This document shows positions 1 through 37,345 of a stretch of DNA of 47,282 bases, piece by piece. Source of the stretch: Acidimicrobiales bacterium (GTDB lineage: Bacteria; Actinomycetota; Acidimicrobiia; Acidimicrobiales; JACCXE01). The stretch is from positions 1-47,282 of the forward strand of contig DASZWD010000050.1 in assembly GCA_035546775.1 (NCBI GenBank), in the 5' to 3' direction. How positions within the stretch are numbered: position 1 is the first letter of the stretch; the number at the start of each line of letters is the position of its first letter. The notes below the pieces were generated by a model. It searched no databases and was not told the DNA's origin. It saw only the letters and a program-made list of their open reading frames with translations. The translations under genes and the position numbers were made by a program.

Positions 1-1310
1 TGGGCGGAGGCCTGCCCACCGTCGCGACCGCCGATCAGGACTCGTCCCCCTGAGGCCGGTGAAGCACCCGAGACGAGGTTGAGCAGCGTCGTCTTGCCCG
101 AACCGTTGGGACCGATGAGGCCGTGCACAGTGCCCGGCGCCACGACGAGGTCGATACCGTCGAGGGCCACCAGGCCACCGAAACGCTTGGTGAGACCGAT
201 GAGCTCGAGCGCGGCGCTCTCGCCCGGCTCGACGTGACGCAACACGGTGCCGGCCGTGGCCGACGCGGCGGCGGCGACGTTCGGGTCGATGACCGCCGGC
301 TTGGCGCGGCTGTTCATCAGTTTGCGGATGTTGCCCATCGTTCCCTCCGGCGCGAGGGCCACACCGGCGAGACCGAGGACGCCGAAAACGAGGTTCTGCT
401 CGTTGACGAGGTGGGTCTGCACCCAGCTAATGCCGAAGCCGAAGGTGACCGCCATGGCGCCGATGATCGGGCCGGCGAGAGTTCCGAGACCGCCAAGGGC
501 GATCACCACGACGTAGCGGAAGGACTGTTCCTGCGTGCCCGAACCGGGGCTCACGAGCAGGAAGCGCTCGGCGGCGACCACACCGGCGACGGCGACGATG
601 CCGGCCGAGAGGGCGAAGGCCGACACCTTGTGCAGGTACGTGCCGACGCCCGACGCCTCCGCCGCGAGTTCGGACTCGCGAATCGCCATGCTCGCCCGGC
701 CCCACTTGCCACGCACGAGGTTCCAGCACAGCCACAGCGTCAGGAACAGCAAGACCGACGACAGGATGAACAAGCCGCGATACGAGTCGCCGTGCGCAAA
801 CGGCAACCCGGCCACGTTGATCGGGTGGTCGACGCTGCGCCCGCTCGTGCCGCCGAGCATCGTCTTGAGCACCACGACGAGCGCAGGCAGCAATGCCCCG
901 AACGCCAGGGTGACGACGGTGAGATAGAAGCCGCGCAGGTGGCAGCACAGGAGGGCGAGCAGGGTGCCCATCAGCGCGCCGAAGGCGAACGCGACGGGAA
1001 GGCCGAACCAGGGCGACAGGCCCCACTGCGGCGCCCACACCGCGCCGGCGTACCCGCCGGCGACGAAGAACCCGGCGTGGCCGAGCGACAGCAAACCGGT
1101 GTAGCCGGTCAGCAGGTTGACGCCCAACGCGATGGCGGCGAGGTAGGTGGCCTCGACGCCGATGTCGAGCCACGACCGCGACGACGAACCCGGCACGTTG
1201 GCGAACCAGATCAAGAACACCGCCAGCGCGGCGGCGGGCACGAAGCGCGACAGCGCCGCCGGCACGTGGAACCGCGGCAGCTTCACTGCCGGGAGGTGAG
1301 CAGTGGCCAC
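1..1310 (-). CDS. livM: LivM-LivG fusion: branched-chain amino acid-type ABC permease plus ATPase (partial)
   Basis: Inner-membrane permease fused to the cytoplasmic ATPase of a branched-chain amino acid/amide-type ABC importer. Translating the minus strand from the GTG at 1310 gives one open frame to the window edge. The first ~330 residues are a LivM-type permease with several hydrophobic segments and a conserved G-Y-T-G-L-L-S-L-G-H stretch. From about residue 370 a LivG-type ABC domain starts (T-K-R-F-G-G-L-V-A-L), with Walker A GPNGSGKTT at residues 400-408 (positions 113-87). The rest of the ATPase (signature, Walker B) lies left of the window. The start is 3 nt after the livH stop, so the genes are co-transcribed. 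LivM-LivG fusions are known in Actinobacteria. The exact substrate cannot be read from the sequence. Confidence 0.88.
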   Translation of the reverse strand, partial: MATAHLPAVKLPRFHVPAALSRFVPAAALAVFLIWFANVPGSSSRSWLDIGVEATYLAAIALGVNLLTGYTGLLSLGHAGFFVAGGYAGAVWAPQWGLSPWFGLPVAFAFGALMGTLLALLCCHLRGFYLTVVTLAFGALLPALVVVLKTMLGGTSGRSVDHPINVAGLPFAHGDSYRGLFILSSVLLFLTLWLCWNLVRGKWGRASMAIRESELAAEASGVGTYLHKVSAFALSAGIVAVAGVVAAERFLLVSPGSGTQEQSFRYVVVIALGGLGTLAGPIIGAMAVTFGFGISWVQTHLVNEQNLVFGVLGLAGVALAPEGTMGNIRKLMNSRAKPAVIDPNVAAAASATAGTVLRHVEPGESAALELIGLTKRFGGLVALDGIDLVVAPGTVHGLIGPNGSGKTTLLNLVSGASPASGGRVLIGGRDGGQASA

Positions 1311-1313
1311 GCG

Positions 1314-2213
1314 TTACGCCTTTTCTACGACGGGCAAGCCGAGCAGACCAGTGGGCCGCACGACCAGGACGAGCAGGAACACCACGAAGATGACGAGCGG
1401 TTCGTACTGGCCTCCGCTCGAGGACACGACGCGCAGGATGGCGCCGACGAAGCCGAGCACGAATCCGCCGAGTACCGCACCCCGCGTCGAACCGAGACCG
1501 CCGATGACCGCGGCGACGAACGCCTGGATCCCGAGCAGGGTGCCGTTGTCGAACTTGACGAACAGCCGCGGCGCCAGCAACACGGCCGCCAGCGCGCCGA
1601 GGGCGCCGGCGATGGCGAAGCTGGCCGTCACCGTCAAGCGCGGGTTGATGCCCATGAGCGACGCGGCGGCGCGGTCCTGCGACACGGCGCGCAACGCACG
1701 GCCCGCCATCGTGTGGCGCTGCACGTACTCGCCCACCACCATCAACACCAGCGCGCTGACGACGATCAAAACGTCGGCAGGCACGATCGGAATGCCGGCC
1801 ACTGTCGAGCCGCGCCAACCGAACACCGAGTCGGCCAGCGCCGGGATGGTGCGCGGTTCAGCGCCGATCGTGAGCTTGATGACGTCGAGGAGGATGAGAC
1901 CGGCAGCGAACGTCGTGAGGATCCACCCGACGCTCGTCCCCGGGTCGAACTCGCGCAGCGGCCGTATCGCCACGACGTCGATGGCGACACCGACGGCGGC
2001 GCCGGCGAGCGCCGAGAGCGGCACCGCACCCCACAACGGGACGCCGGCGCGTACGAAGGCGAAGGCGATGTAGCCGCCGACGACGAGCATCGAGCCCTGG
2101 GCGAAGTTCACGACGCGACTCGTGGCGAACACGAGGTTGTAGCCGAGCGCGACGAGCGCCAGCACCGACCCCACCGTCATCCCGTAGACGACTATTTGTA
2201 CGAGGTTGCTCAC
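1314..2213 (-). CDS. livH: LivH-type ABC transporter permease
   Basis: Integral membrane permease (299 aa) of the branched-chain amino acid/amide/urea importer family, pairing with the LivM half encoded just downstream. Hydrophobic segments run through the whole protein. Family hallmarks are visible: ALGYNLVFATSRVVNFAQG near the N-terminus and the GI-QAFVAAVIGGLGSTRGAVLGG stretch near residues 220-245. Start is GTG at 2213, 13 nt after the stop of the binding-protein gene. Length is normal for LivH (about 290-300 aa). Part of the operon running from 8110 leftwards. Confidence 0.93.
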   Translation of the reverse strand: MSNLVQIVVYGMTVGSVLALVALGYNLVFATSRVVNFAQGSMLVVGGYIAFAFVRAGVPLWGAVPLSALAGAAVGVAIDVVAIRPLREFDPGTSVGWILTTFAAGLILLDVIKLTIGAEPRTIPALADSVFGWRGSTVAGIPIVPADVLIVVSALVLMVVGEYVQRHTMAGRALRAVSQDRAAASLMGINPRLTVTASFAIAGALGALAAVLLAPRLFVKFDNGTLLGIQAFVAAVIGGLGSTRGAVLGGFVLGFVGAILRVVSSSGGQYEPLVIFVVFLLVLVVRPTGLLGLPVVEKA

Positions 2214-2226
2214 GGTTCGGCGGCGA

Positions 2227-3702
2227 CTAGTGAATCTTGCACTCGTTGCCGAGCGTGCCGTCGGCGTGCTTGGTGCACTGCGTGCCGTAGCCGAGGCGCA
2301 ACACCTCCGCCATCGTGTCCGGATGGGCGCGCTTGTTTGCTTCGAGCGTCGGGCGCACGAGGTGCGTAGGGCCGACGTAGCCCGCGGGGAACACGCTCTT
2401 CCATTCCGCGCCGAGTTCGTACGCCGGCGTCGTCTTGGCCGGCCCCGACGACTTCTCGAGGGTGACGATCAGCAGGTCGTCCATCGTCTTGGAGAGGTGG
2501 CGGTCGGCGCTGAAGCTGAACGGCAGCGACGCGAACTTGATATCGCCCATCGTCTCGAGGGCGGTGACCATCTTCTGACGATCCGTCGACCCGGCGCTCT
2601 GCGTGGCCTTGAGCAGCGCGAACAGGCCGTCGGCCGGCGACTCTTCGCCACCGGTGACGCCCTTCTTCAGGAACTTCTGCATCCAGCCGCGGATGGCGAA
2701 GCTGGGCAGCGAGACGAGCCCGCCGACATGCCACGCCGTCAGCGTTCCGATCTTGGCGGCGGAGCCGGCGAGGTCGGCCCACGTGTGCTCGCCGGTGCCA
2801 CCGGGCGACCCCATGATGTGCGGGTTCCAACCGCCGGCCTTCGCCGTCGGGGTGTCGACGTAGCCGCCGCCCACCTTGTCGATCGCCTTGGCGATGCCGG
2901 CGGTGTCACCAGCGATACCCCAGACGAACAGGGAGTGACCTTTCTGACCCTTGAGCCGGTTGATCTGCGGACCGAAGTCGGCGTCGCCGAGCTGGTAGCT
3001 CTCCATGCCGGCGGTCGACATCCCGTACTTGCTCATCGACGCGGTGAAGTACTCCTTGGCGTTGGCGCCGATCAGCGTGTCGTAGATGAGGCCGACCTTC
3101 GAGTAGCCGCGGTCGTTCTTGGCGTAGTTGGCGAGGACGTCGAAGGCCATCGAGTCGGGCATGAGCATCTGGAAGATCGACCGCTCGGGCGCGCTGGGGT
3201 ACAGGCTCTTCGACGAGTACAAGTCGTTGAACACCGCGATGACGGGCATGTTGTCGCGCTTGATCTGCGCCCGACTCTCGTCGAGGCCGGCACCGCCGCA
3301 CCACAGGATGCCGATGACGCTCGAGTCCGACGCGAACGCCTGGTACGCCTTCACGCCCGCCTGCGGGTCGGTACCCGTGTCGCGCTTGATGACCTCCACC
3401 TTGCGCCCGCCGATGCCGCCCGTCGCATTGATCTGGGCGACGGCGGCGTCGAGTGAGTTGTTGACGATGCGGCCCACGAAGGCGCCGACGCCGGAGAAGA
3501 TGCCGACGACACCGACCTTCAGCGTGTCGCCCGAAGCGGTGAAGCCCCGCGACTTGTCGGCCGCCGTGGTGGCCGACGACTGGTCGTTCTTGTTACCGCC
3601 ACCACCGCAAGCGGTGAGGGCGAGCACCGACATCGTGCCGAAGCCGACCGAGCCGGCCCACTTCACAAAGTCTCGTCGGGAGAATTCCTTCTGTTCGTCC
3701 AT
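2227..3702 (-). CDS. ABC transporter substrate-binding lipoprotein with Tat-type signal
   Basis: Extracytoplasmic binding protein (491 aa, Peripla_BP_6/LivJ-like type I fold) that should deliver a ligand to the LivH/LivM permease. The N-terminus has a twin-arginine motif S-R-R-D-F at residues 8-12, a hydrophobic stretch and a lipobox L-T-A-C ending at Cys32, followed by a Gly/Asn/Ser/Thr-rich linker. This implies Tat export and lipid anchoring. The mature part shows the family pattern (KVGVVGIFSG.GAFVG, D.AVAQINATGGIGGRKVEV, VIGILW). It lies 2 nt after the second binding-protein gene in the same operon. Ligand unknown: amino acids, amides, urea and aromatic acids are all used by this family. 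Confidence 0.88.
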   Translation of the reverse strand: MDEQKEFSRRDFVKWAGSVGFGTMSVLALTACGGGGNKNDQSSATTAADKSRGFTASGDTLKVGVVGIFSGVGAFVGRIVNNSLDAAVAQINATGGIGGRKVEVIKRDTGTDPQAGVKAYQAFASDSSVIGILWCGGAGLDESRAQIKRDNMPVIAVFNDLYSSKSLYPSAPERSIFQMLMPDSMAFDVLANYAKNDRGYSKVGLIYDTLIGANAKEYFTASMSKYGMSTAGMESYQLGDADFGPQINRLKGQKGHSLFVWGIAGDTAGIAKAIDKVGGGYVDTPTAKAGGWNPHIMGSPGGTGEHTWADLAGSAAKIGTLTAWHVGGLVSLPSFAIRGWMQKFLKKGVTGGEESPADGLFALLKATQSAGSTDRQKMVTALETMGDIKFASLPFSFSADRHLSKTMDDLLIVTLEKSSGPAKTTPAYELGAEWKSVFPAGYVGPTHLVRPTLEANKRAHPDTMAEVLRLGYGTQCTKHADGTLGNECKIH

Positions 3703-3704
3703 CG

Positions 3705-5003
3705 TTAGCCTCCGTATGGATTGTCGAGACCCGCGAGCGCGGCGGGTGGGGTGTACGACCCGGCGACGGCGATCCAGTGACCGCCGGCGGTGGCGTCGGT
3801 CGGGTAGCGCCCGCCGCCGTCGTTGAGCGACGAGTACGTCAGCAACGCCACGTTCTTGTCGTTGAAGGCGAGCTGCTGCGAGAAGTCGTCTGGCGCTCCG
3901 ACCGTGCCCGTGACGGCGTCGGTGGCCACGTTCTTGATGGCGTCGAGCACGTCGGCGCGATCGGCCTTCGCCTCAGCCGCGTGGACGAGTGCGAGCACAG
4001 CGTCGTGACTGCGGAAGTCGGCGAACGTCAGGTCGGCGCTCACCGCACCACTCGACACCGCCTTGTCGCGGGCGAGGTAGAACGCGTCGGCGGCGGCGGT
4101 GGGCAGGTCCGGACCGGCCCAGGTTCCGACCGAGAGCGCACCGTCGTTGACGGCGGGTGCGAGCGACCCGGCGACACCGTGGCCGAAGGCGGGTACTGCG
4201 GCGCGATCGCCGAAGAGCAGCGCGCCGCTGTAGCCGGCCGTCGACAGCGCGTCGGCCGCCGCCAGCGACGTGGCGGCGTCGGCGAACACGATCACCGCGT
4301 CCGGCGCGCCGGCGACGATGCCCGTCGCCGAGATCGGATCCGTCGCGGTGATCGGCGTGTCGCTGACGAAGGACAACCCGTCGGCGACGAGCGCCGCCTT
4401 GCCGGCGTCGCCGTAGGAACCGGCTTGGCGCAGCAGCGCGATCTTGCCGGCGTCCTTGGTCTTGTCGGCGAGCTTGGATGCGACCTGTTCGATCGTGGGT
4501 GACGCCAGGTACGAGGTGGCGCCCTGGTCGACGATGCGGTGATCGTCGGCGTAGGGGTACACGACGGCGACGCCCTTCTCGGCGGCGGTGGCGGCGCCGG
4601 CGAGCAGTTGCTCACCGGTCGACGCGTACACGATGCCGATCACGCCCTGGTCGACGAGGTTGTTCACCGCCGCGGTCGCGCCGTCCGGCGTGCCGTTGTC
4701 GTCCTGCACGGCGAGCTCGACGTGGCTGTTGCCCGTCTTGGCTTCGTTGAGGCGGAAGGCCGCGATGTACGCGCCGGCCGCCATGTCCTTCAGGTCGGCG
4801 CCGGGACCGGCGCTCGACACGATGAGGCCGACCTTGGCGTCCTTCACGGTCGTCTGCAGAGCGATGGCCGGGGCGCCCGACAGGTTCGTCGAGCGGGCCT
4901 TCTCGCCCTCGGTGTTGGTCTTGGTCTTGCTGCTGCACGCCACACCCGCGAGGGCGACGGCGACGCAGACGGCCGCTGCGGCCGCTTTCCGGGCCCGGGT
5001 CAT
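3705..5003 (-). CDS. Second ABC substrate-binding lipoprotein (Peripla_BP_6-like)
   Basis: 432-aa secreted protein with a short Lys/Arg N-terminus, hydrophobic segment and a probable lipidation Cys23 (A-G-V-A-C-S-S; position -3 is not the usual Leu). The mature sequence follows the type I periplasmic-binding fold (VGLIVSSAGPGADLKDMAAG, VQDDNGTPDGATAAVNNLVDQGVIGIVYASTGE). It is clearly divergent from the 491-aa binding protein next to it, so the operon carries two different receptors. Its ATG overlaps the stop of the upstream repeat-protein gene by 4 nt (5000-5003), which points to translational coupling. Ligand unknown; a sensory rather than transport role is also possible. Confidence 0.8.
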   Translation of the reverse strand: MTRARKAAAAAVCVAVALAGVACSSKTKTNTEGEKARSTNLSGAPAIALQTTVKDAKVGLIVSSAGPGADLKDMAAGAYIAAFRLNEAKTGNSHVELAVQDDNGTPDGATAAVNNLVDQGVIGIVYASTGEQLLAGAATAAEKGVAVVYPYADDHRIVDQGATSYLASPTIEQVASKLADKTKDAGKIALLRQAGSYGDAGKAALVADGLSFVSDTPITATDPISATGIVAGAPDAVIVFADAATSLAAADALSTAGYSGALLFGDRAAVPAFGHGVAGSLAPAVNDGALSVGTWAGPDLPTAAADAFYLARDKAVSSGAVSADLTFADFRSHDAVLALVHAAEAKADRADVLDAIKNVATDAVTGTVGAPDDFSQQLAFNDKNVALLTYSSLNDGGGRYPTDATAGGHWIAVAGSYTPPAALAGLDNPYGG

Positions 5004-8000
5004 CCCACGCCTCCTTCCCGGAAGACGAAGATTGTTCGGTGCTTGTCGCCACTGGCGCTGCCGAAGCCCTGGTACTGCTCGGCGCGGGTTACCCCGGCCT
5101 GGTGCAGGGCAGTGGCGACGTCGGCGCTGTTGACCGAACTCGACACGACATGGCTGAGCGTGGTGGCACCGGTGGCGCCCGTCGAGGCGCCGCCGTTCGC
5201 GAGGCCGAGGCCGTCGCTCACCTGCTTGAGACCAGCCAAGATCGTCGCCGCGCTGACGTTGGGGTCGCCGAGAGCGTCCACGATCTGGGCGACGCCGGCG
5301 ACGAACTGGTTCATGACCGCGTCCTTCGACGACTGCAAGGCGTAGAGCAGGTCAGCCGGCGTCTCGATGACGTTGCCGTACTTCGACGTGCGGGTGGTCA
5401 CGTTCTTCACCGGCTTGCCGCTGGCGTCGACGTTGCCGAGGCCGGCGACGATCTGGTCGATCCCGCCGACGAGTTGCGACACGCCCGAACTCATGGCGAC
5501 GAGCGCCGCTTGCATCGTCAACGGCGTGCCGTCGGAACCGAAGTCGCTGGCGCCGCCGGTACCGATCGAGTCGTGGGCGAGTTGCGCGCCACCTTGGAGC
5601 TGCGCGACACCCTGCTGGAGGGCGACGAGCGACGCTTGGATCGTCAGCGGCGTGGCGCCGTTGAACTCGTTGCCGAGGCCGAGCGACGCGTAGATCTGCT
5701 GCAGGCCTTCGACGACGGCGGGATTGTTGACGTCACCCGAGGACAGGCCGGCGCGGATGGCGTTGAGGCTCGCCCGCAGTGATGCCGGCAGGCCGTTGTT
5801 GAATTCACTGCCGGTACCGATTGCCGCCAGGATCTGCTGGAGGCCTTCGATGACCGCCGGGTTCTGCATGCTGCCCGACGACAGGCCGGCGCGGATCGCG
5901 TCGACGCCGGCGCGGATCGACTTCGGCACGCCGTTGACGACTTCAGAACCGTCACCGACGGCGGCGAACACCTGCTGGACGCCTTCGATGATGCCCGGCG
6001 TCACCTGACTGCCCGACGACAGGCCGGCGCGCATGGCCACCATCGACGCCATCAACGTGAGCGGATTCTGGTTGGCGTCGAACTCGGTGCCGTCGCCGAT
6101 GCCGGCGTAAATCTTCTGGAGGCCCTCGAGGACTCCGGGGTTGTTCACGTCGCCCGACTCCAGCCCGGCGCTCATCGTGTCGAGCGCCGCTTTGAACTGG
6201 CCAACTGCCGTGTCGAGGACACCCTGGACCGCGCCGCCCTGCGTGAGGTCGAGAGCGAGCGGGCCGAGCAGCCCGTTAACCGTGGCGACAAACGTTGACG
6301 CGAACCCGTCGAGCTGCGTCTTCATCTGCCCGATGCCGGCGACGACTTGCTCGACGCCTTCGATGATGCCGGGATCGACCATGCTGCCCGTGGACAGTGC
6401 GCCGCGGATGGCGTTCAGCGTCGCCCGAGCCGTCAGCGGGTTGCCGCTGCCGTCGAACTCGTTGCCCGCTCCGATGCCGGCGTAGATCTTTTGGAGGCCT
6501 TCGAGAATTGCGGGGTTGTTGGCGTCTCCGGACGACAGCGCGGCGCGCACGGCGGCGAGCGACGCCGCGAGCGTGAGCGGCAGGTTGTTCGAGTCGAACT
6601 CGGTGCCGTTGCCGATCGAGTTGTAGATCGTCTGGAGGCCCTCGATGATCTTCGGGTTGTTCATGTCACCCGACGACAGCGCACCGTGGATGGCGGCGAG
6701 GCCGGCGGCGACCGTCAGCGGCGTGGTGCCGCTGAACTCGGTGCCGTTGCCGATCGACGCGTAGATCGTCTGGAGACCCTCGATGATCGCCGGGTTGTTC
6801 ATGTCACCCGACGACAGGCCAGCGCGGACGGCGTTGATCGACGCCCGAATCGTGAGCGGCGTCGTGCCGTTGAACTCGGTGCCGGCGCCGATGGCGTCGG
6901 AGATCTGCTGGAGCCCTTCGACGAGGCCGGGCGCGTTCACGTCGCCCGACGAGATGCCCAGACGCAGCGCGTTGAGCGACGCCCGGACGGTCAGCGGGTT
7001 GCCGTTGCCGTCGAACTCGTTGCCCTGGCCGATGCCGGAGATGACCTGGTTGAGGCCTTCGACGACACCGGGGTTGGAGGCGTCGCCGGTCTTGAGGCCG
7101 GCGCGGATCTGTGCCGCGCCCGTGATCATCGTGCCCAAGCCGTCACCGAGGAGGCTGAGCGCCTCGAGGAGACCCGGCTGGTTGTAGGCCAGAGTCGAGT
7201 CTTCGGCGTAGAGGGGCTTGTCGAACTTCGTGTTCGTCAGGCCGGGCTTCAACGTGTCGTTCATGCCGGCGAAGATCTGGTCGAGGCCGCCCTTCAGTTG
7301 TGAGATGCCGCCGTCGAGTTGGGCGAAGCCGTCGCCGAACTGGGCGATGTAGCCGCGCACGGTCGCGGTGGCGGCGCCACCCTTCTCGGCCGCGTCGCTC
7401 GCCGCCTTGGGCAGCGCGCCGCTGATGCCGGGGGTCGCGACCATCTGCGTCTCGGGGAGCTTGAAGTTGTTGGTCTTGCCTTCGACGGTGAAGTTCGCCG
7501 TGCCGGGGAACACCGGCGGCGCGAGGACCGACGTCCAAGAAAGGACAGTGGCGTCGTTGGCCGACGAGCGCGACAGGACGCCGTTGCTCGTCAGGCTGTC
7601 GAAGGACGCGTCGGGGAGCGAGAGACCGGACAGGTCGACGGTGAAGGGCACCATCGTCGCCGCCGTGACCGTCTTCTCCTTGCCGGTGACCGAGTCGGTG
7701 TAGGTGACCTCCTCGGTCTTCTGCGTGCGGTTGGTGACATCCCACTCGACCTTGAAGTCACCGGACTTGCCGGCGATGTCCTGCGCGGAGACCTCGGTGC
7801 CGTTCAGGAAGTAGTGCGTATGCACCACGACCGGCAGCGCGCGATGGTCGCCGTTGACGGTTACTAGTCCGTCCTTCAGATCGAGCGTCGACGCGTTGGC
7901 GCTGTCTTTGGATCCGCTGTCGCTGTAGGTGCGGGTGAACGCGTTGAGCGTGACGCCCAACGGGAACCCGGCGCTGTCGAGGCGAACAACGGCAACGTCG

Positions 8001-8110
8001 ACGGATTTCGTCTCGTCGGCGCTGGCGGACAGGACTTGTGCCGCGAACACTGCGGTCGCGACAACAACGACGGCGGCGGCAACTGCGCGCCGCGTACGTG
8101 GCCTCCTCAT
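5000..8110 (-). CDS. Large secreted protein with about ten 46-residue tandem repeats
   Basis: 1036-aa protein with an N-terminal signal segment (R-rich, then a run of A/V ending near residue 31), so it is probably exported. Residues ~35-230 look like beta-rich extracellular domains. From ~250 the sequence is built of Leu/Gly-spaced stretches (F.QLDGGISQLKGGLDQIFAG) and then about ten imperfect copies of a ~46-aa unit (138 bp), e.g. RAGLSSGDVNNPAVVEGLQQ followed by IYASIGNGTEF and PLT.RASLNAI, interrupted once by a non-repeat spacer near residues 590-640. I see no sortase motif or C-terminal anchor. The pattern recalls the X-X-X-Leu-X-X-Gly repeats next to YhgE/Pip domains, so a helical rod or coiled coil is likely. 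A strong SD (AAGGAGG) precedes the ATG. First gene of the Liv-type operon. Function unknown. Confidence 0.8.
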   Translation of the reverse strand: MRRPRTRRAVAAAVVVVATAVFAAQVLSASADETKSVDVAVVRLDSAGFPLGVTLNAFTRTYSDSGSKDSANASTLDLKDGLVTVNGDHRALPVVVHTHYFLNGTEVSAQDIAGKSGDFKVEWDVTNRTQKTEEVTYTDSVTGKEKTVTAATMVPFTVDLSGLSLPDASFDSLTSNGVLSRSSANDATVLSWTSVLAPPVFPGTANFTVEGKTNNFKLPETQMVATPGISGALPKAASDAAEKGGAATATVRGYIAQFGDGFAQLDGGISQLKGGLDQIFAGMNDTLKPGLTNTKFDKPLYAEDSTLAYNQPGLLEALSLLGDGLGTMITGAAQIRAGLKTGDASNPGVVEGLNQVISGIGQGNEFDGNGNPLTVRASLNALRLGISSGDVNAPGLVEGLQQISDAIGAGTEFNGTTPLTIRASINAVRAGLSSGDMNNPAIIEGLQTIYASIGNGTEFSGTTPLTVAAGLAAIHGALSSGDMNNPKIIEGLQTIYNSIGNGTEFDSNNLPLTLAASLAAVRAALSSGDANNPAILEGLQKIYAGIGAGNEFDGSGNPLTARATLNAIRGALSTGSMVDPGIIEGVEQVVAGIGQMKTQLDGFASTFVATVNGLLGPLALDLTQGGAVQGVLDTAVGQFKAALDTMSAGLESGDVNNPGVLEGLQKIYAGIGDGTEFDANQNPLTLMASMVAMRAGLSSGSQVTPGIIEGVQQVFAAVGDGSEVVNGVPKSIRAGVDAIRAGLSSGSMQNPAVIEGLQQILAAIGTGSEFNNGLPASLRASLNAIRAGLSSGDVNNPAVVEGLQQIYASLGLGNEFNGATPLTIQASLVALQQGVAQLQGGAQLAHDSIGTGGASDFGSDGTPLTMQAALVAMSSGVSQLVGGIDQIVAGLGNVDASGKPVKNVTTRTSKYGNVIETPADLLYALQSSKDAVMNQFVAGVAQIVDALGDPNVSAATILAGLKQVSDGLGLANGGASTGATGATTLSHVVSSSVNSADVATALHQAGVTRAEQYQGFGSASGDKHRTIFVFREGGVG

Positions 8111-8198
8111 ATGGCCTCCTTGTTCGATAACCCCCTGATCGGCGGAGGTCAGAAGAGGCTGAGCAGGAATGCCACGGCGTTGGGTTTTCCTTGGCTAC
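8111..8198 (-). promoter_or_regulatory. Leader/promoter region of the repeat protein-Liv operon
   Basis: 88-bp gap upstream of the repeat-protein gene. On the minus strand an AAGGAGG Shine-Dalgarno sequence sits 4 nt before the ATG at 8110. The operon promoter is probably in this gap, but I cannot point to -35/-10 boxes with confidence. Read-through from the gene ending at 8199 is also possible. Confidence 0.4.
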
Positions 8199-9131
8199 TT
8201 AGGGCCGTTGGACCTGATTCCACTCAATCCACCCCAAGCCCGCGACTCCGGCGCGGGTCGTGAAGCGCGTGGCGGCGCGATTGAAGTGGGCGCGCTGACC
8301 GTTCGGGTCGACGAGGAGCAGCGGACCGAACGCTATGGGGTCGACGACGAGGTCGATGCCCGCAGGCGCGCACGTGACGGTGCCGCGCGTCGGCATGCCG
8401 TAGTCGCCGAGTTCTTCGGTGGTCACCAGTTCGCTTTCGACGGCGACGACCTCGCCATCGTGTTGCCGGTAGCCGAAGCTCAAGCGGAAGTCGGGGCTGA
8501 GCCGGATGTCGGCGCCGTGCACGCGGGTTCCGTCGTCCAACCACCCGGCGAACCAGCACCACTCGAAGGACCACCAGTCGCGGTTGGCCCACGAGTGATC
8601 GCGCTGGCCGCGGCAATTCACGGTGTAGGTCTCGTCGCCGACCGTGATCGTCCCGGCGACGGTGCACGGGATCTCGTAGCGCGGCGAGAGGACGTAGTGA
8701 TACGGCACGCCGTCGGTCGTCCACGTGACGTCGAAGGCGACCGTGGTCTCCTCCGCGTTGGAGTTGTCGTACACGCCGTTGGCCGTCGGGTGCACTTTGG
8801 CGGGCGCGCTCGCGACGACGCGGAAGTGCTGCAACGGTTCGTCGACGATGCAGTCGACGGTGACGTCTTGTGCGGCGACCGACATGGCGTCGGGCGCCGG
8901 GAGCGGCAACGCGTAGTTCGTCGACATCACGCACGGCTTGTCCTTGCCGACAACCGCAGCGGTCCACCAGGCCACGCCCTGGTTCGGGTGCAGGCCGAGG
9001 CGGACGTAGCCGGCGAGTTCGCCGTCGCCGTCGACGAAGTCGAGATACCACGACTCGTTCCACCATTCCTCGGGTCCCGGCTCGTGCCGGCCTTCGTCGG
9101 CGGGGTCAACGGAGTGGTCGAGATCGCTCAT
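8199..9131 (-). CDS. CrtC/AttH lipocalin-like protein (DUF7064/7065-type)
   Basis: 310-aa soluble protein, rich in Trp and beta-type sequence, with no signal peptide. Conserved-looking features are W-W-N-E-S-W-Y-L-D-F near the N-terminus and G-Q-R-D-H-S-W-A-N-R-D-W-W near residue 205. These resemble actinobacterial proteins with two tandem lipocalin-like domains related to hydroxyneurosporene synthase/AttH; the family name is from memory. The start is set at ATG 9131 (MSDLDHSVD). An in-frame extension to 9272 would run through the thioesterase gene on the other strand and is not credible. The divergent thioesterase starts only 19 nt away, suggesting a shared promoter region and perhaps lipid-related metabolism. 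Confidence 0.6.
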   Translation of the reverse strand: MSDLDHSVDPADEGRHEPGPEEWWNESWYLDFVDGDGELAGYVRLGLHPNQGVAWWTAAVVGKDKPCVMSTNYALPLPAPDAMSVAAQDVTVDCIVDEPLQHFRVVASAPAKVHPTANGVYDNSNAEETTVAFDVTWTTDGVPYHYVLSPRYEIPCTVAGTITVGDETYTVNCRGQRDHSWANRDWWSFEWCWFAGWLDDGTRVHGADIRLSPDFRLSFGYRQHDGEVVAVESELVTTEELGDYGMPTRGTVTCAPAGIDLVVDPIAFGPLLLVDPNGQRAHFNRAATRFTTRAGVAGLGWIEWNQVQRP

Positions 9132-9150
9132 TGCCGTAGCGTTCCATGCC

Positions 9151-9603
9151 ATGGCGATCGGCAAGGAAATCGTGTTCGACTTCCCCGACAACAACTGCTT
9201 CGGCTGCAGCCCGACCAACGAGCGCGGCCTGCAGCTGCGGTTCACGCAGGTGAGCCACAGCGGCGTCGCCACGCGCTACACCGCGCCCGCGCACACGTGC
9301 GGCGCCCCGGGGGTCGTGCACGGCGGTGTGCAGGCGGCGCTGCTCGACGAGGCAATCGGCTTCGCCATGCACGCCATGCACGCGTCCAACGGAGAGCTGG
9401 GAGCCGACGAAGCCGGCTGGCAGAACGTCGCCACCATGGAGTTCGACCTGCGCTACCGCCGCCCCGTTCCCGTCGGCATCGAGGTCGGCGTGCGCGCCGA
9501 AGTCATCGGCGCCTACGGCAAGGACTACTACGCCGTCGCCGAGATCACCGGCACCGACGACGAGGTGCTGACCAGCGCGACTGCGAAGTGGCGCCGGGTC
9601 TGA
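9151..9603 (+). CDS. PaaI/4HBT-family hotdog thioesterase
   Basis: 150-aa hotdog-fold protein, probably hydrolysing acyl-CoA thioesters in the cytoplasm. The diagnostic segment G-V-V-H-G-G-V-Q-A-A-L-L-D-E-A-I-G at ~residues 52-68 contains the HGG turn and the acidic residue of the long helix used by the PaaI branch. An N-terminal N-C-F-G-C-S-P motif matches the actinobacterial subgroup that begins with a Cys-x-x-Cys-like element. Full length for the family. Divergent from the lipocalin-like gene and convergent with the gene ending at 9614. Acyl substrate unknown. Confidence 0.85.
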   Translation: MAIGKEIVFDFPDNNCFGCSPTNERGLQLRFTQVSHSGVATRYTAPAHTCGAPGVVHGGVQAALLDEAIGFAMHAMHASNGELGADEAGWQNVATMEFDLRYRRPVPVGIEVGVRAEVIGAYGKDYYAVAEITGTDDEVLTSATAKWRRV

Positions 9604-22313: not shown

Positions 22314-23846
22314 TTAGAAGTCGCGATCCTTGGATCCGGACTCCGTCACCGGCGCCGTCGAGCACTTGTTGCCCGCGAGATCCGTCGCCGTGCTCGCTGG
22401 CGTCCACACCATCGTGGCCGACGCAACGGTGCGCAGCTGACCGGCGTTGCTGATGGCCGAACCGAGCGTGATGGTGATCGTCGATCCGCTCTGGACCATG
22501 GTGGCGTTGAACGGGACGACCTTGTTGTTCTTGACGTAGTTGCCCTTGAGGTTCACCGAACCCAGGTTGACCGCCGTCGTGTAGGCGCTGGAGGTGAACA
22601 CGTCGAGGGTGTCGTCGTTGGTGGTCAGGCCGAGGGTGAGGCCGTCCCGCAGGCGTACGACGACCGGCGTCGACGTGCCGGTCCAGCCGGCGAGCACGGT
22701 GCTCGGCTTCATCGTCTCGCTGTAGCTGAGCGTGAGCGTGTCGCCCGAGCTCAGCTTGCCGGCCTGGCCGCCGGCAGCGGCATGGACGTCGGTGCCCCGC
22801 ACCGCCGTGTTGTCGACCAGCGACGGGCCGACGGTGGCCGAGGTCGTCGTCAGGCCGAGCGTGTCGGTGAGGATCGCCCGGAAGCTGAACCCGCCGTCGG
22901 TGACCGTCGTGGTGTCCCAGGGGCAGCTGTAGGGCGCCGTCGTGTCGGTGCACAGGTCGACCCACGTGCTCGACCCCGTCGTCTGGCGCTGGAGCTTGAT
23001 CGAGACGACGCCGACGGAGGCGTTGGCGTTGGCGTTGATCGAGACCGTGCCCCGCAGGTAGGCGCCCGGGTCGTTGACCGACACCGACTCGACGATCGTG
23101 TTGGTGACGATGCGGTTCTTGACGGTCGCGGTGGTCGTCGGGTTGCCGGCGACGTCGGTGACGATCGCCCGGAAGTCGTAGGCACCGTCGGTCACCTGGG
23201 TGGAGTCGAATCGGCAGCCGAAAGGCACGGCGAACGACGTGCAGATCGTGGTCCAGTTGGTAGAGCCGCTCGGCGCTCGCTGGATGGCGACGCTGGCGAC
23301 GCCCGACTCGCCGTCGGTGGCCGTCGCCGAGATGGTGACGACGCCGCTGATCGGACTCGGAATGCTGTCGAGCGAGCCGGCGGGAGCGGTGTTGTCGACG
23401 AGGACGCCTTCGACCAGCGACGTGGCGGTGTAACCGGCGTTGTCGGTGGCCGTGGCCTGCAGGTCGACGTCGTCCTCGGCCAGGCCGGTGGTGCTGAACG
23501 AGCACGTGTACGGGCTCGTCGAGTCCGTACAGATCGTCGTCCAGCCCGTGGTGCCACTCGGCGCCCACGCGACGACGACGTTCTTGACGTCCGTCTCCGC
23601 GTCCGACGCCGACGCGCTCAGCGTGACGGTGCCGCGAATGGCGTCGCCGGGATCGGCGAGCGTGACGGTCGGGGGCGTCCAGTCGATGGCGGAGCTCACC
23701 GACGAGGTGTTCGTGGAGTTGGACGTGAACAAGGCCCATCCCACACCGGGAAGGGCCATGAACACGACGAGCGCACCAAGAATGCCCAGCCCCCACCGCA
23801 GAAGCCGACCTGTGGTTTCGGCGTCAGAGCGGTGAGGACTGGGCAT
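22314..23846 (-). CDS. Secreted SipW-type Ig-like repeat surface protein
   Basis: 510-aa exported protein. Residues ~15-45 are a hydrophobic segment followed by A-L-F-T-S-N-S-T-N-T-S-S, the same F-T-S-N-S motif found after the signal of the neighbouring TasA-like protein, so it is probably also cut by the SipW-type peptidase. Three Ig-like repeats of ~95 aa follow (P-P-T-V-T-L-A..., A-P-A-G-S-L..., V-E-S-V-S-V...), each with a paired-Cys segment such as T-I-C-T-D-S-T-S-P-Y-T-C. The C-terminal ~150 aa is a different beta-rich domain (L-S-S-G-D-T-L-T-L-S-Y-S-E). Likely a matrix, fibre-associated or adhesin protein. I see no Shine-Dalgarno sequence before the ATG. Confidence 0.8.
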   Translation of the reverse strand: MPSPHRSDAETTGRLLRWGLGILGALVVFMALPGVGWALFTSNSTNTSSVSSAIDWTPPTVTLADPGDAIRGTVTLSASASDAETDVKNVVVAWAPSGTTGWTTICTDSTSPYTCSFSTTGLAEDDVDLQATATDNAGYTATSLVEGVLVDNTAPAGSLDSIPSPISGVVTISATATDGESGVASVAIQRAPSGSTNWTTICTSFAVPFGCRFDSTQVTDGAYDFRAIVTDVAGNPTTTATVKNRIVTNTIVESVSVNDPGAYLRGTVSINANANASVGVVSIKLQRQTTGSSTWVDLCTDTTAPYSCPWDTTTVTDGGFSFRAILTDTLGLTTTSATVGPSLVDNTAVRGTDVHAAAGGQAGKLSSGDTLTLSYSETMKPSTVLAGWTGTSTPVVVRLRDGLTLGLTTNDDTLDVFTSSAYTTAVNLGSVNLKGNYVKNNKVVPFNATMVQSGSTITITLGSAISNAGQLRTVASATMVWTPASTATDLAGNKCSTAPVTESGSKDRDF

Positions 23847-35482: not shown

Positions 35483-37345
35483 TCAGGCCGCCTGGTCGCA
35501 GTAGGTGACCTGGGCGCCGTCGGCGCCGGGGTCGCAGCGGTCGATGCCGTCGCCGCCGTCGAGGGTGTCGTAGCCCGCACCGCCGATGAGCGTGTCGTTG
35601 CCCGCGCCGCCGTGCAGCGTGTCGTTGCCGGCGCCGCCGTCGAGCCGGTTCGCCGCCGGGCTGCCCGTGAGGGTGTCGCCGCCCGACCCGCCGGTCACGT
35701 TCTCGACGTCGGCCTTCACGTTGTCGTGCTCGTTGGCCTCGCCGTCGTTCGCCACGCCGTCGAGCGTGACGGAGACGGGCGCGGCCCGGCCCGCGTAGCT
35801 GATCGAGTCGACGGCGGTGCCACCGGCGATGGTGTCGGCGCCGTCGGCCGCGTGCACGACGAAGGTGTCGGCGCCGGCGTCGCCCGAGAGGACGTCGTTG
35901 CCGGCGCCCCCGTCGATGACGTCATCGCCGGAACCACCGCTGATGACGTTGTCGCCCGCGCCCCCGGTCAGCGTGTCGTTGCCGAGGCCACCGGTGAGCA
36001 TCTCGACGTCAGTGCCGACGTTGTCGCGCTCACCCGTGGCTCCGTCGTCCGCGGTGCCGTCAGGGTCCGCCGAGATGGGCGCGGTGCGCTCGGACCACGT
36101 GACGAGGTCGCGCCCGGCGCCACCCACGAACGAGTCGGCGCCGTCGAGGTCAGGGTTGGCGACGAAGGTGTCGTCCCCGCTGCCGCCGTCGAGCGCGTCG
36201 TCGCCGAAGCCGCCCACGAGGATGTTCTTGAGCGAGCTACCGACCAGGTGGTCGTTGCCCGCACCGCCGAGGATGGTCTCGACATCGGCGCGCACGTCGT
36301 CGTGTTCGTCGGCCGCGCCGTCGTCGGCCTGCACGTCGGCGTCGACCGAGATCGGCGCCGACCGTTCGGCATAGGACAACACGTCGGTAGCCGTGCCACC
36401 GGTGATCGTGTCGGCCCCGTCGGCCACGCGGTCGGAGAGGAACACGTCGGCCCCAGCGCCACCGTCGAGTACGTCGTCGCCCGTTCCCCCGATGATGATG
36501 TCGTCGCCGGCGCCGCCCGCGACCTTGTCGTTGCCGCCGAGGGCGCAGATGACGTCGGGGCCCTGCGTGCCGGTGATGGTGTCGGCACCGCTCGTCCCGT
36601 TGATCGTGCACTCAGGACGGATCGTCACCGCGTACGCACCCGTGTCGTCGTCGGCAGAGTCGTCGACGCGCAGCGTGTAGCTCGCCGTGCTGGGCAGCGT
36701 GCACGTGGCTTGCGCGGTGACGCCGGCGCGGGTGGCGCACACGACGTCGCCGTTGGGCGCGAACACGTCGAGGTCGGCCTCCATGACGGAGGTGCCGACG
36801 ACGGTTGCCCGCGCCACCATAAGGGCGTTGGCGGCACCGGAGAACGTGTACCAGTCGTTCTCGCCGGCGACGGCGATGAGACCCTGCCGCGGCCGCGCCA
36901 TGGCCAACGCCAACCCACCGACGGGTCGATTGACGCGCTGGGCCTCGAGGCGGTAGCCGCCGACGTCGTCGCTGCCCGAGTCGAACACCGACACGGTGTA
37001 ACGACCGGCAGAGGCCAAGCGGCAGACGGCTTCGGTGCTCGGCCCGGCGGTAGCCGAGCACACCGTCTTGCCCGCAGCGTCGCGTACGTCGAGGTCCATC
37101 TCGAGGCCCGACCCGGCGGCACCGGTGGCGTGCACGTAGGCGACGTCGCCCGCCGACGCTCTCAGGGCGAAGCCGTCGACCTCGCCCTTCGCGGCGAGTG
37201 AGCACGCCACGGTCGTGCCGAACGAGATGGTGCTGGGACACGCGGTGGCCGCCGCCACTTTGGGCGTGCCGTTGGGCAGGCACGCGACGAGAAGCGCCGT
37301 GATGGCGCCGGCCAGCGCCACGCGCCGGAACTGCTGCGAAGACAT
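35483..37345 (-). CDS. Secreted RTX-type calcium-binding repeat protein, possible lipoprotein
   Basis: 620-aa exported protein. The signal region ends with L-V-A-C (Cys22), a good lipobox, so it may be lipid-anchored. Residues ~35-250 hold two beta-sandwich domains resembling bacterial pre-peptidase C-terminal domains (A-G-R-Y-T-V-S-V-F-D-S-G-S-D-D, S-Y-T-L-R-V-D-D-S-A-D-D). From ~255 onward there are many RTX nonapeptides (G-G-A-G-D-D-I-I-I, G-G-A-G-N-D-T-L-H, G-G-S-G-D-D-V-I-D), separated by three similar blocks of the form A-P-I-S-V-D..A-D-D-G-A..E-H-D-D-V. These bind Ca2+ in beta-rolls. No type I secretion genes are nearby, as expected for a monoderm. Confidence 0.85.
   Translation of the reverse strand: MSSQQFRRVALAGAITALLVACLPNGTPKVAAATACPSTISFGTTVACSLAAKGEVDGFALRASAGDVAYVHATGAAGSGLEMDLDVRDAAGKTVCSATAGPSTEAVCRLASAGRYTVSVFDSGSDDVGGYRLEAQRVNRPVGGLALAMARPRQGLIAVAGENDWYTFSGAANALMVARATVVGTSVMEADLDVFAPNGDVVCATRAGVTAQATCTLPSTASYTLRVDDSADDDTGAYAVTIRPECTINGTSGADTITGTQGPDVICALGGNDKVAGGAGDDIIIGGTGDDVLDGGAGADVFLSDRVADGADTITGGTATDVLSYAERSAPISVDADVQADDGAADEHDDVRADVETILGGAGNDHLVGSSLKNILVGGFGDDALDGGSGDDTFVANPDLDGADSFVGGAGRDLVTWSERTAPISADPDGTADDGATGERDNVGTDVEMLTGGLGNDTLTGGAGDNVISGGSGDDVIDGGAGNDVLSGDAGADTFVVHAADGADTIAGGTAVDSISYAGRAAPVSVTLDGVANDGEANEHDNVKADVENVTGGSGGDTLTGSPAANRLDGGAGNDTLHGGAGNDTLIGGAGYDTLDGGDGIDRCDPGADGAQVTYCDQAA

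Follow-up and report, generated by a model that had tools for sequence, protein, structure and literature searches.

Organization of the operon

The window analyzed here, a stretch of 47,282 nucleotides from an Acidimicrobiales bacterium, opens with a run of five genes on the reverse strand that comprise the signature components of a Liv-type ABC importer operon (a BPD_transp_2 permease, a Peripla_BP_6 binding protein and adjacent LivM and LivG), along with a gene for a large secreted protein, denoted here the stalk protein:

5000..8110, reverse strand: stalk protein gene (ROD), an open reading frame for 1036 amino acids, secreted, without a C-terminal membrane anchor
3705..5003, reverse strand: SBP1, a lipoprotein-like type I binding protein (type assigned by reading of the sequence), with an ATGA overlap with the stalk gene
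2227..3702, reverse strand: SBP2, a binding protein with a Tat-type signal (Peripla_BP_6, 7e-35; lipobox-like LTAC read from the sequence)
1314..2213, reverse strand: LivH-type permease (BPD_transp_2, 7e-38), in the clade of stalk-linked LivH
1..1310, reverse strand: LivM-LivG fusion (permease and the beginning of the ATPase domain), truncated at the contig end

The stop codon of the stalk gene and the start codon of the SBP1 gene share the ATGA at 5000-5003, which bears out the 4-nucleotide overlap with a binding-protein gene that was pointed out in the first-pass annotation. SBP1 itself yielded no Pfam match. The LivM-LivG protein is similar to the fused LivM/G of G067 and G072, two Acidimicrobiia metagenome-assembled genomes; LivF lies outside the visible sequence of the window, where the contig ends within LivG.

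The first-pass annotation placed the stalk gene at the head of the operon. In G067 and G072, it is indeed the first gene of the block; in the window, however, a DUF7064/DUF7065 gene (8199-9272, reverse strand) is located 88 bp upstream on the same strand, and for this reason the stalk gene is possibly not the first one transcribed. A DUF7064-like gene is likewise found near another Liv operon in G295 (L119). Elsewhere in the window, a secreted protein with RTX calcium-binding nonapeptide repeats (35483-37345, reverse strand; HemolysinCabind, 1e-41) and a secreted-looking protein with two bacterial Ig-like domains (22314-23846, reverse strand; Big_7) are encoded.

Domain architecture of the stalk protein

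The stalk open reading frame starts with ATG immediately downstream of a Shine-Dalgarno sequence and encompasses the following features:

8115..8121, reverse strand: ribosome-binding site AAGGAGG, from the sequence
8018..8110, reverse strand: signal peptide-like segment, residues 1-31 (hydropathy peaking over residues 6-32; AxA-type site read from the sequence)
7328..8005, reverse strand: conserved N-domain, residues 36-261 (profile match in all 40 family members, alignment, secondary structure)
7265..7342, reverse strand: xxxLxxG heptad-like stretch, residues 257-282 (TIGR03057 match)
6269..7108, reverse strand: repeat array 1, six units of 46/47 amino acids, residues 335-614 (DNA repeat, self-identity, unit HMM)
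6176..6268, reverse strand: spacer within the sixth unit, residues 615-645 (self-identity, unit HMM)
5618..6175, reverse strand: repeat array 2, four units, residues 646-831 (DNA repeat, self-identity, unit HMM)
5492..5584, reverse strand: degenerate partial unit, residues 843-873 (unit HMM, domain E-value 2e-4)
5003..5137, reverse strand: conserved C-domain, residues 992-1036 (profile match, 1e-13)

Secretion, as originally proposed, is supported by the N-terminal sequence, in which the hydrophobic core at residues 6-32 is followed by ASA-DE (hydropathy and reading of the sequence). No transmembrane segment beyond the signal peptide was detected by hydropathy analysis, and neither an LPxTG motif nor another wall-sorting signal was found at the C-terminus (FVFREGGVG, without a transmembrane segment). 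That the protein is a frameshifted form that lost its anchor was considered and rejected because the stalk proteins of G067 and G072 end alike, with the same C-domain. Lacking a visible anchor, the Acidimicrobiia forms could be released from the cell.

The N-domain matched its profile with an E-value of 2e-56 after iteration and the G067 protein with 1.7e-30 in a single-sequence comparison. In the window protein, this domain is approximately 50 amino acids shorter than in its relatives, according to the alignment, and is predicted to consist mostly of strands in a low-confidence model. The C-domain profile match (E-value 1e-13) covers residues 992-1031, the window protein being among the seeds of that profile. 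No Pfam domain was identified in the stalk protein and no significant Pfam relative for its N-domain; likewise, the PDB search produced no sequence relative, and none of the matches to the N-domain profile was significant (best E-value 0.34). Matches to PHROGs covered short stretches, with no domain above the threshold, and were taken as chance. The TIGR03057 model scored 20.4 bits in the genome search and 13.7 bits in the protein scan, against a cut-off of 18.6.

The middle of the protein is occupied by ten units of 46/47 amino acids (138 bp in the DNA), starting at residues 347, 394, 440, 486, 533, 580, 658, 705, 751 and 797, of which the one at residue 580 is stretched to 78 amino acids by the spacer; this agrees with the about ten copies, one of them interrupted, in the original description. 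Chance repetition was rejected given that self-identity across residues 316-900 reaches 156 at lag 46 (115 at lag 47), compared with at most 74 identities over lags 20-99 in 2000 shuffles. The HMM of the unit (consensus roughly RAGLSSGD.NNPAIIEGLQ.IYA.IG.GTEF.....PLT..ASLNAI) recovered all 10 copies and a weak eleventh at 843-873. Two helices are predicted per unit. A period of 46 residues and the presence of Pro/Gly loops speak for short paired helices and against a single long coiled coil, in agreement with the predicted secondary structure. Of the helical rod that was initially envisaged, the helix pairs are retained, but the confidence of the two three-dimensional models (pLDDT 36 and 47) is too low for an array, regular or not, to be read from them, so that the term describes secondary structure only.

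Conservation of the stalk-Liv block

Among 395 Acidimicrobiia genomes, the N-domain search gave strong matches only in G067, G072 and the genome of the window (G000), and a ten-sequence profile retrieved the same three; scans of named genomes also recovered only G067 and G072 as relatives. A fourth stalk gene, in G077, is split over contig ends. All these Acidimicrobiia members, the three and the split one, are Liv-linked, with the gene order stalk-SBP1-SBP2-LivH-LivM/G, and in G067 and G072, ATGA (4-nucleotide) overlaps are present again. The same block headed by the stalk gene is found in G434, G448 and G462, which belong to a second class of Actinomycetota; there, the operon consists of genes for the stalk protein, SBP1, a beta-propeller protein with a C-terminal transmembrane helix, a sortase-like protein, SBP2 and LivH. 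In this second class, the stalk gene is present in all 3 of the 3 genomes that are more than 90% complete.

Liv operons are frequent, and the chance neighborhood of one of them and the stalk gene was therefore weighed. Each of the six genomes with a stalk operon contains 5-19 LivH matches, yet the best match to the window LivH is in every case the stalk-operon copy, and a tree of 27 LivH groups the six stalk-linked sequences in a single clade (support 99/96). The paralogue ranking and the tree reject the chance explanation and indicate a distinct Liv-type system. SBP1, too, has strong matches only in genomes with the stalk; a weak SBP1-like match in G295 was dismissed as part of a different Liv operon without a stalk gene. 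Judging from these sequence comparisons, the stalk gene has been inherited together with a single LivH clade in both classes of Actinomycetota, and the test put forward in the first-pass annotation, conservation upstream of Liv-type operons in related genomes, thus came out positive in six genomes.

Several other features of these loci were observed. G067 (L034:2397-7468, reverse strand) and G072 (L035:12182-17816, forward strand) possess a second Liv operon (SBP2-like, LivH, LivM/G) divergently transcribed and back to back with the stalk operon, and a similar arrangement is seen in G448 (L088:10252-13933). The sortase-domain proteins of the second-class operons (L088:3282-3911, L086:3021-3617 and L077 about 3850-4450, all on the reverse strand) contain no cysteine at all and seemingly lack the usual histidine, and hence are probably catalytically dead; each of their genes adjoins a gene for a membrane-anchored beta-propeller of the PQQ/BamB type.

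A family of stalk proteins with different partners

In the phylum sample of Actinomycetota, the N-domain was matched in 55 of 396 genomes; both this set and the 395 Acidimicrobiia genomes, drawn from a larger class, are samples, and diverged members may have escaped the first-look step of the search. We collected 40 proteins, all of which contain the N-domain and 26 of which contain the C-domain of about 42 amino acids, located either at the extreme C-terminus or immediately ahead of a transmembrane helix. The domain profiles were iterated from, and tested on, these same 40 proteins, so that the E-values denote consistency rather than independent discovery; in the shuffled-sequence control, no match fell below an E-value of 0.18. 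Complete members share a long middle of about 300-700 amino acids.

The gene partners of the family, as assigned by BLAST against one or two reference sequences per kind, are a Liv operon, an MMPL/RND protein, a DUF1097 membrane protein or, in the remaining cases, none that was recognized. The N-domain tree sorts by partner: the Liv group is moderately supported (86/85) and includes the window protein as a long branch, the MMPL group has support of 97/93 and the DUF1097 group 100/100, and a fourth group consists of partnerless proteins, most with a C-terminal transmembrane helix of their own. Three ungrouped proteins (L102, L111 and L112) fall inside the DUF1097 branch; no DUF1097 gene was found for them, two of the three being near contig ends. 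The MMPL-type and the Acidimicrobiia Liv-type stalks lack an anchor; in the complete DUF1097-type and the second-class Liv-type stalks, one is present. At one MMPL-partnered locus (L087:1321-6181), a sortase-like gene lies beside the MMPL gene, resembling the second-class Liv operons.

The N-domain defines an unnamed actinobacterial family, probably of envelope stalk proteins, with subfamilies each tied to a different membrane partner, and the window protein conforms to it, with the N-domain following the signal peptide, the C-domain at the C-end and the gene beside the partner of its subfamily. A search of literature available without subscription found no paper describing this family.

The 46-residue repeats are distributed differently. 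With the unit HMM, they were not detected in the other Liv-linked stalks, including those of G067 and G072; one to three copies were found in about 17 other stalks, nearly all of the DUF1097 type (sequence E-values 3e-6 to 2e-15, the best shuffled value being 0.005). The repeat array is a lineage-specific elaboration rather than a conserved feature of Liv-linked stalks, and looks like the expansion of an old stalk module. Liv-linked stalks have the N-domain and the C-domain in common and differ in their middles, which are replaced wholesale; because the other Liv-linked homologues yielded no repeats, the conserved function must reside in the two terminal domains. The window protein is of mixed affinity, its repeats resembling those of DUF1097-type relatives and its terminal domains grouping with the Liv type; recombination, or loss of the repeats in G067 and G072, are possible causes. 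The non-repeat middles of the G067 (L034) and G072 (L035) proteins contain DADGDG motifs followed by FVWPDPD, resembling calcium-binding loops, which are absent from the window protein.

Possible function of the stalk protein

The reading that we favor, tentatively and at slightly less than an even chance, is that a distinct Liv-type ABC importer has this protein as its dedicated envelope stalk. The C-domain would be located at the membrane, given that a transmembrane helix closely follows it in anchored relatives, and would dock on the transporter or its lipoprotein receptors; members without an anchor would be retained by their partner. The variable helical middle, in the window the ten two-helix units, would span the cell wall as a spacer whose repeat number, which has changed freely between lineages, would set only the reach, and the conserved N-domain, at the far end, might contact either the ligand or a polymer of the wall or surface. 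The substrate would thereby be kept near the two lipoprotein receptors. Capture of substrate and linkage to the wall, the roles suggested in the first-pass annotation, are putative. The presence of other envelope proteins in the second-class operon, the membrane-anchored beta-propeller and the sortase-like protein, was counted in favor of an envelope stalk, as were the conserved and coinherited block and the sorting of the N-domain tree by partner. On a broader scale, exchangeable envelope stalks docking on inner-membrane proteins that are unrelated to one another (ABC importer, MMPL/RND, DUF1097) might be a general class in Actinomycetota, with this Liv-type importer reaching through the cell wall by means of one; we regard this generalization as speculative and somewhat unlikely.

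An alternative, unlikely in our estimate but deserving attention, is that the protein belongs to the wall or surface layer and is merely co-transcribed with the importer, for example, in response to the same inducing signal, without any contact. It is secreted without a membrane anchor or a known interaction motif, and some relatives have no recognized partner, most of them with their own C-terminal anchor, all of which would fit; coinheritance with one LivH clade in two classes and the partner-specific subfamilies nevertheless argue for a functional partnership, and the 4-nucleotide overlaps suggest translational coupling. The long middle bears on a different possibility, namely, that the protein acts close to the membrane in assembly or stability, with the middle as dispensable filler. 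Among Liv-linked members, only the terminal domains are conserved, as this would predict, but retention of about 300-700 residues in complete members suggests that length matters, and we deem such a role improbable.

The sister subfamily partnered with MMPL/RND proteins raises the further possibility, by analogy with MmpL5, whose coiled-coil tube reaches about 18 nm (PMC12501195), that the stalk conducts or shuttles hydrophobic ligands across the wall and that the Liv-type system would import such a ligand. The 46-residue period and the Pro/Gly loops argue against a continuous coiled coil, and no oligomer or tube is predicted. Moreover, the Liv-type ligands known so far are mostly small polar compounds; a conduit appears quite unlikely.

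Relationship to known systems

The usual view of ABC importers in monoderm bacteria is that they depend on binding proteins tethered to the membrane; a stalk inherited together with the importer would extend this view by a part that crosses the wall. From the sorting of the family by partner, testable predictions follow for many actinobacterial proteins that lack annotation, and the family provides a candidate role for proteins now labeled only "heptad repeat" or "hypothetical".

The closest known systems are the Liv/HAAT-type importers (LivJ/K-LivH-LivM-LivG-LivF), with which the window operon shares SBP2 (Peripla_BP_6), LivH (BPD_transp_2) and homologues of LivM and LivG, in an identical order; it differs in the additional stalk gene, a second, divergent lipoprotein-like SBP and the fusion of LivM and LivG, to which the second-class operon adds the beta-propeller and the sortase-like protein. 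The likeness to xxxLxxG heptad-repeat proteins (TIGR03057) amounts to one marginal match in the window protein and is clear in the relatives L082, L109 and L079; the main repeat in the window is 46 amino acids long, not a heptad, and the model covers the repeat only, leaving out the N- and C-domains by which the family is defined. Like the surface proteins YueB/EsaA and YhgE/Pip of Bacillota, the stalk protein has a large ectodomain (that of YueB is reported to form a fibre, according to a title from the reference list of PMC3701619), but it has no transmembrane segment beyond the signal peptide and different partner genes, and its membership in EsaA/Pip was rejected, there being no match to the Pip/YhgE model and no flanking transmembrane segments. 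In MmpL5, a helical extension, the coiled-coil tube, projects from the transporter into the wall (PMC12501195); there, the tube is a domain of the exporter itself, whereas the stalk described here is a separate protein encoded with an importer.
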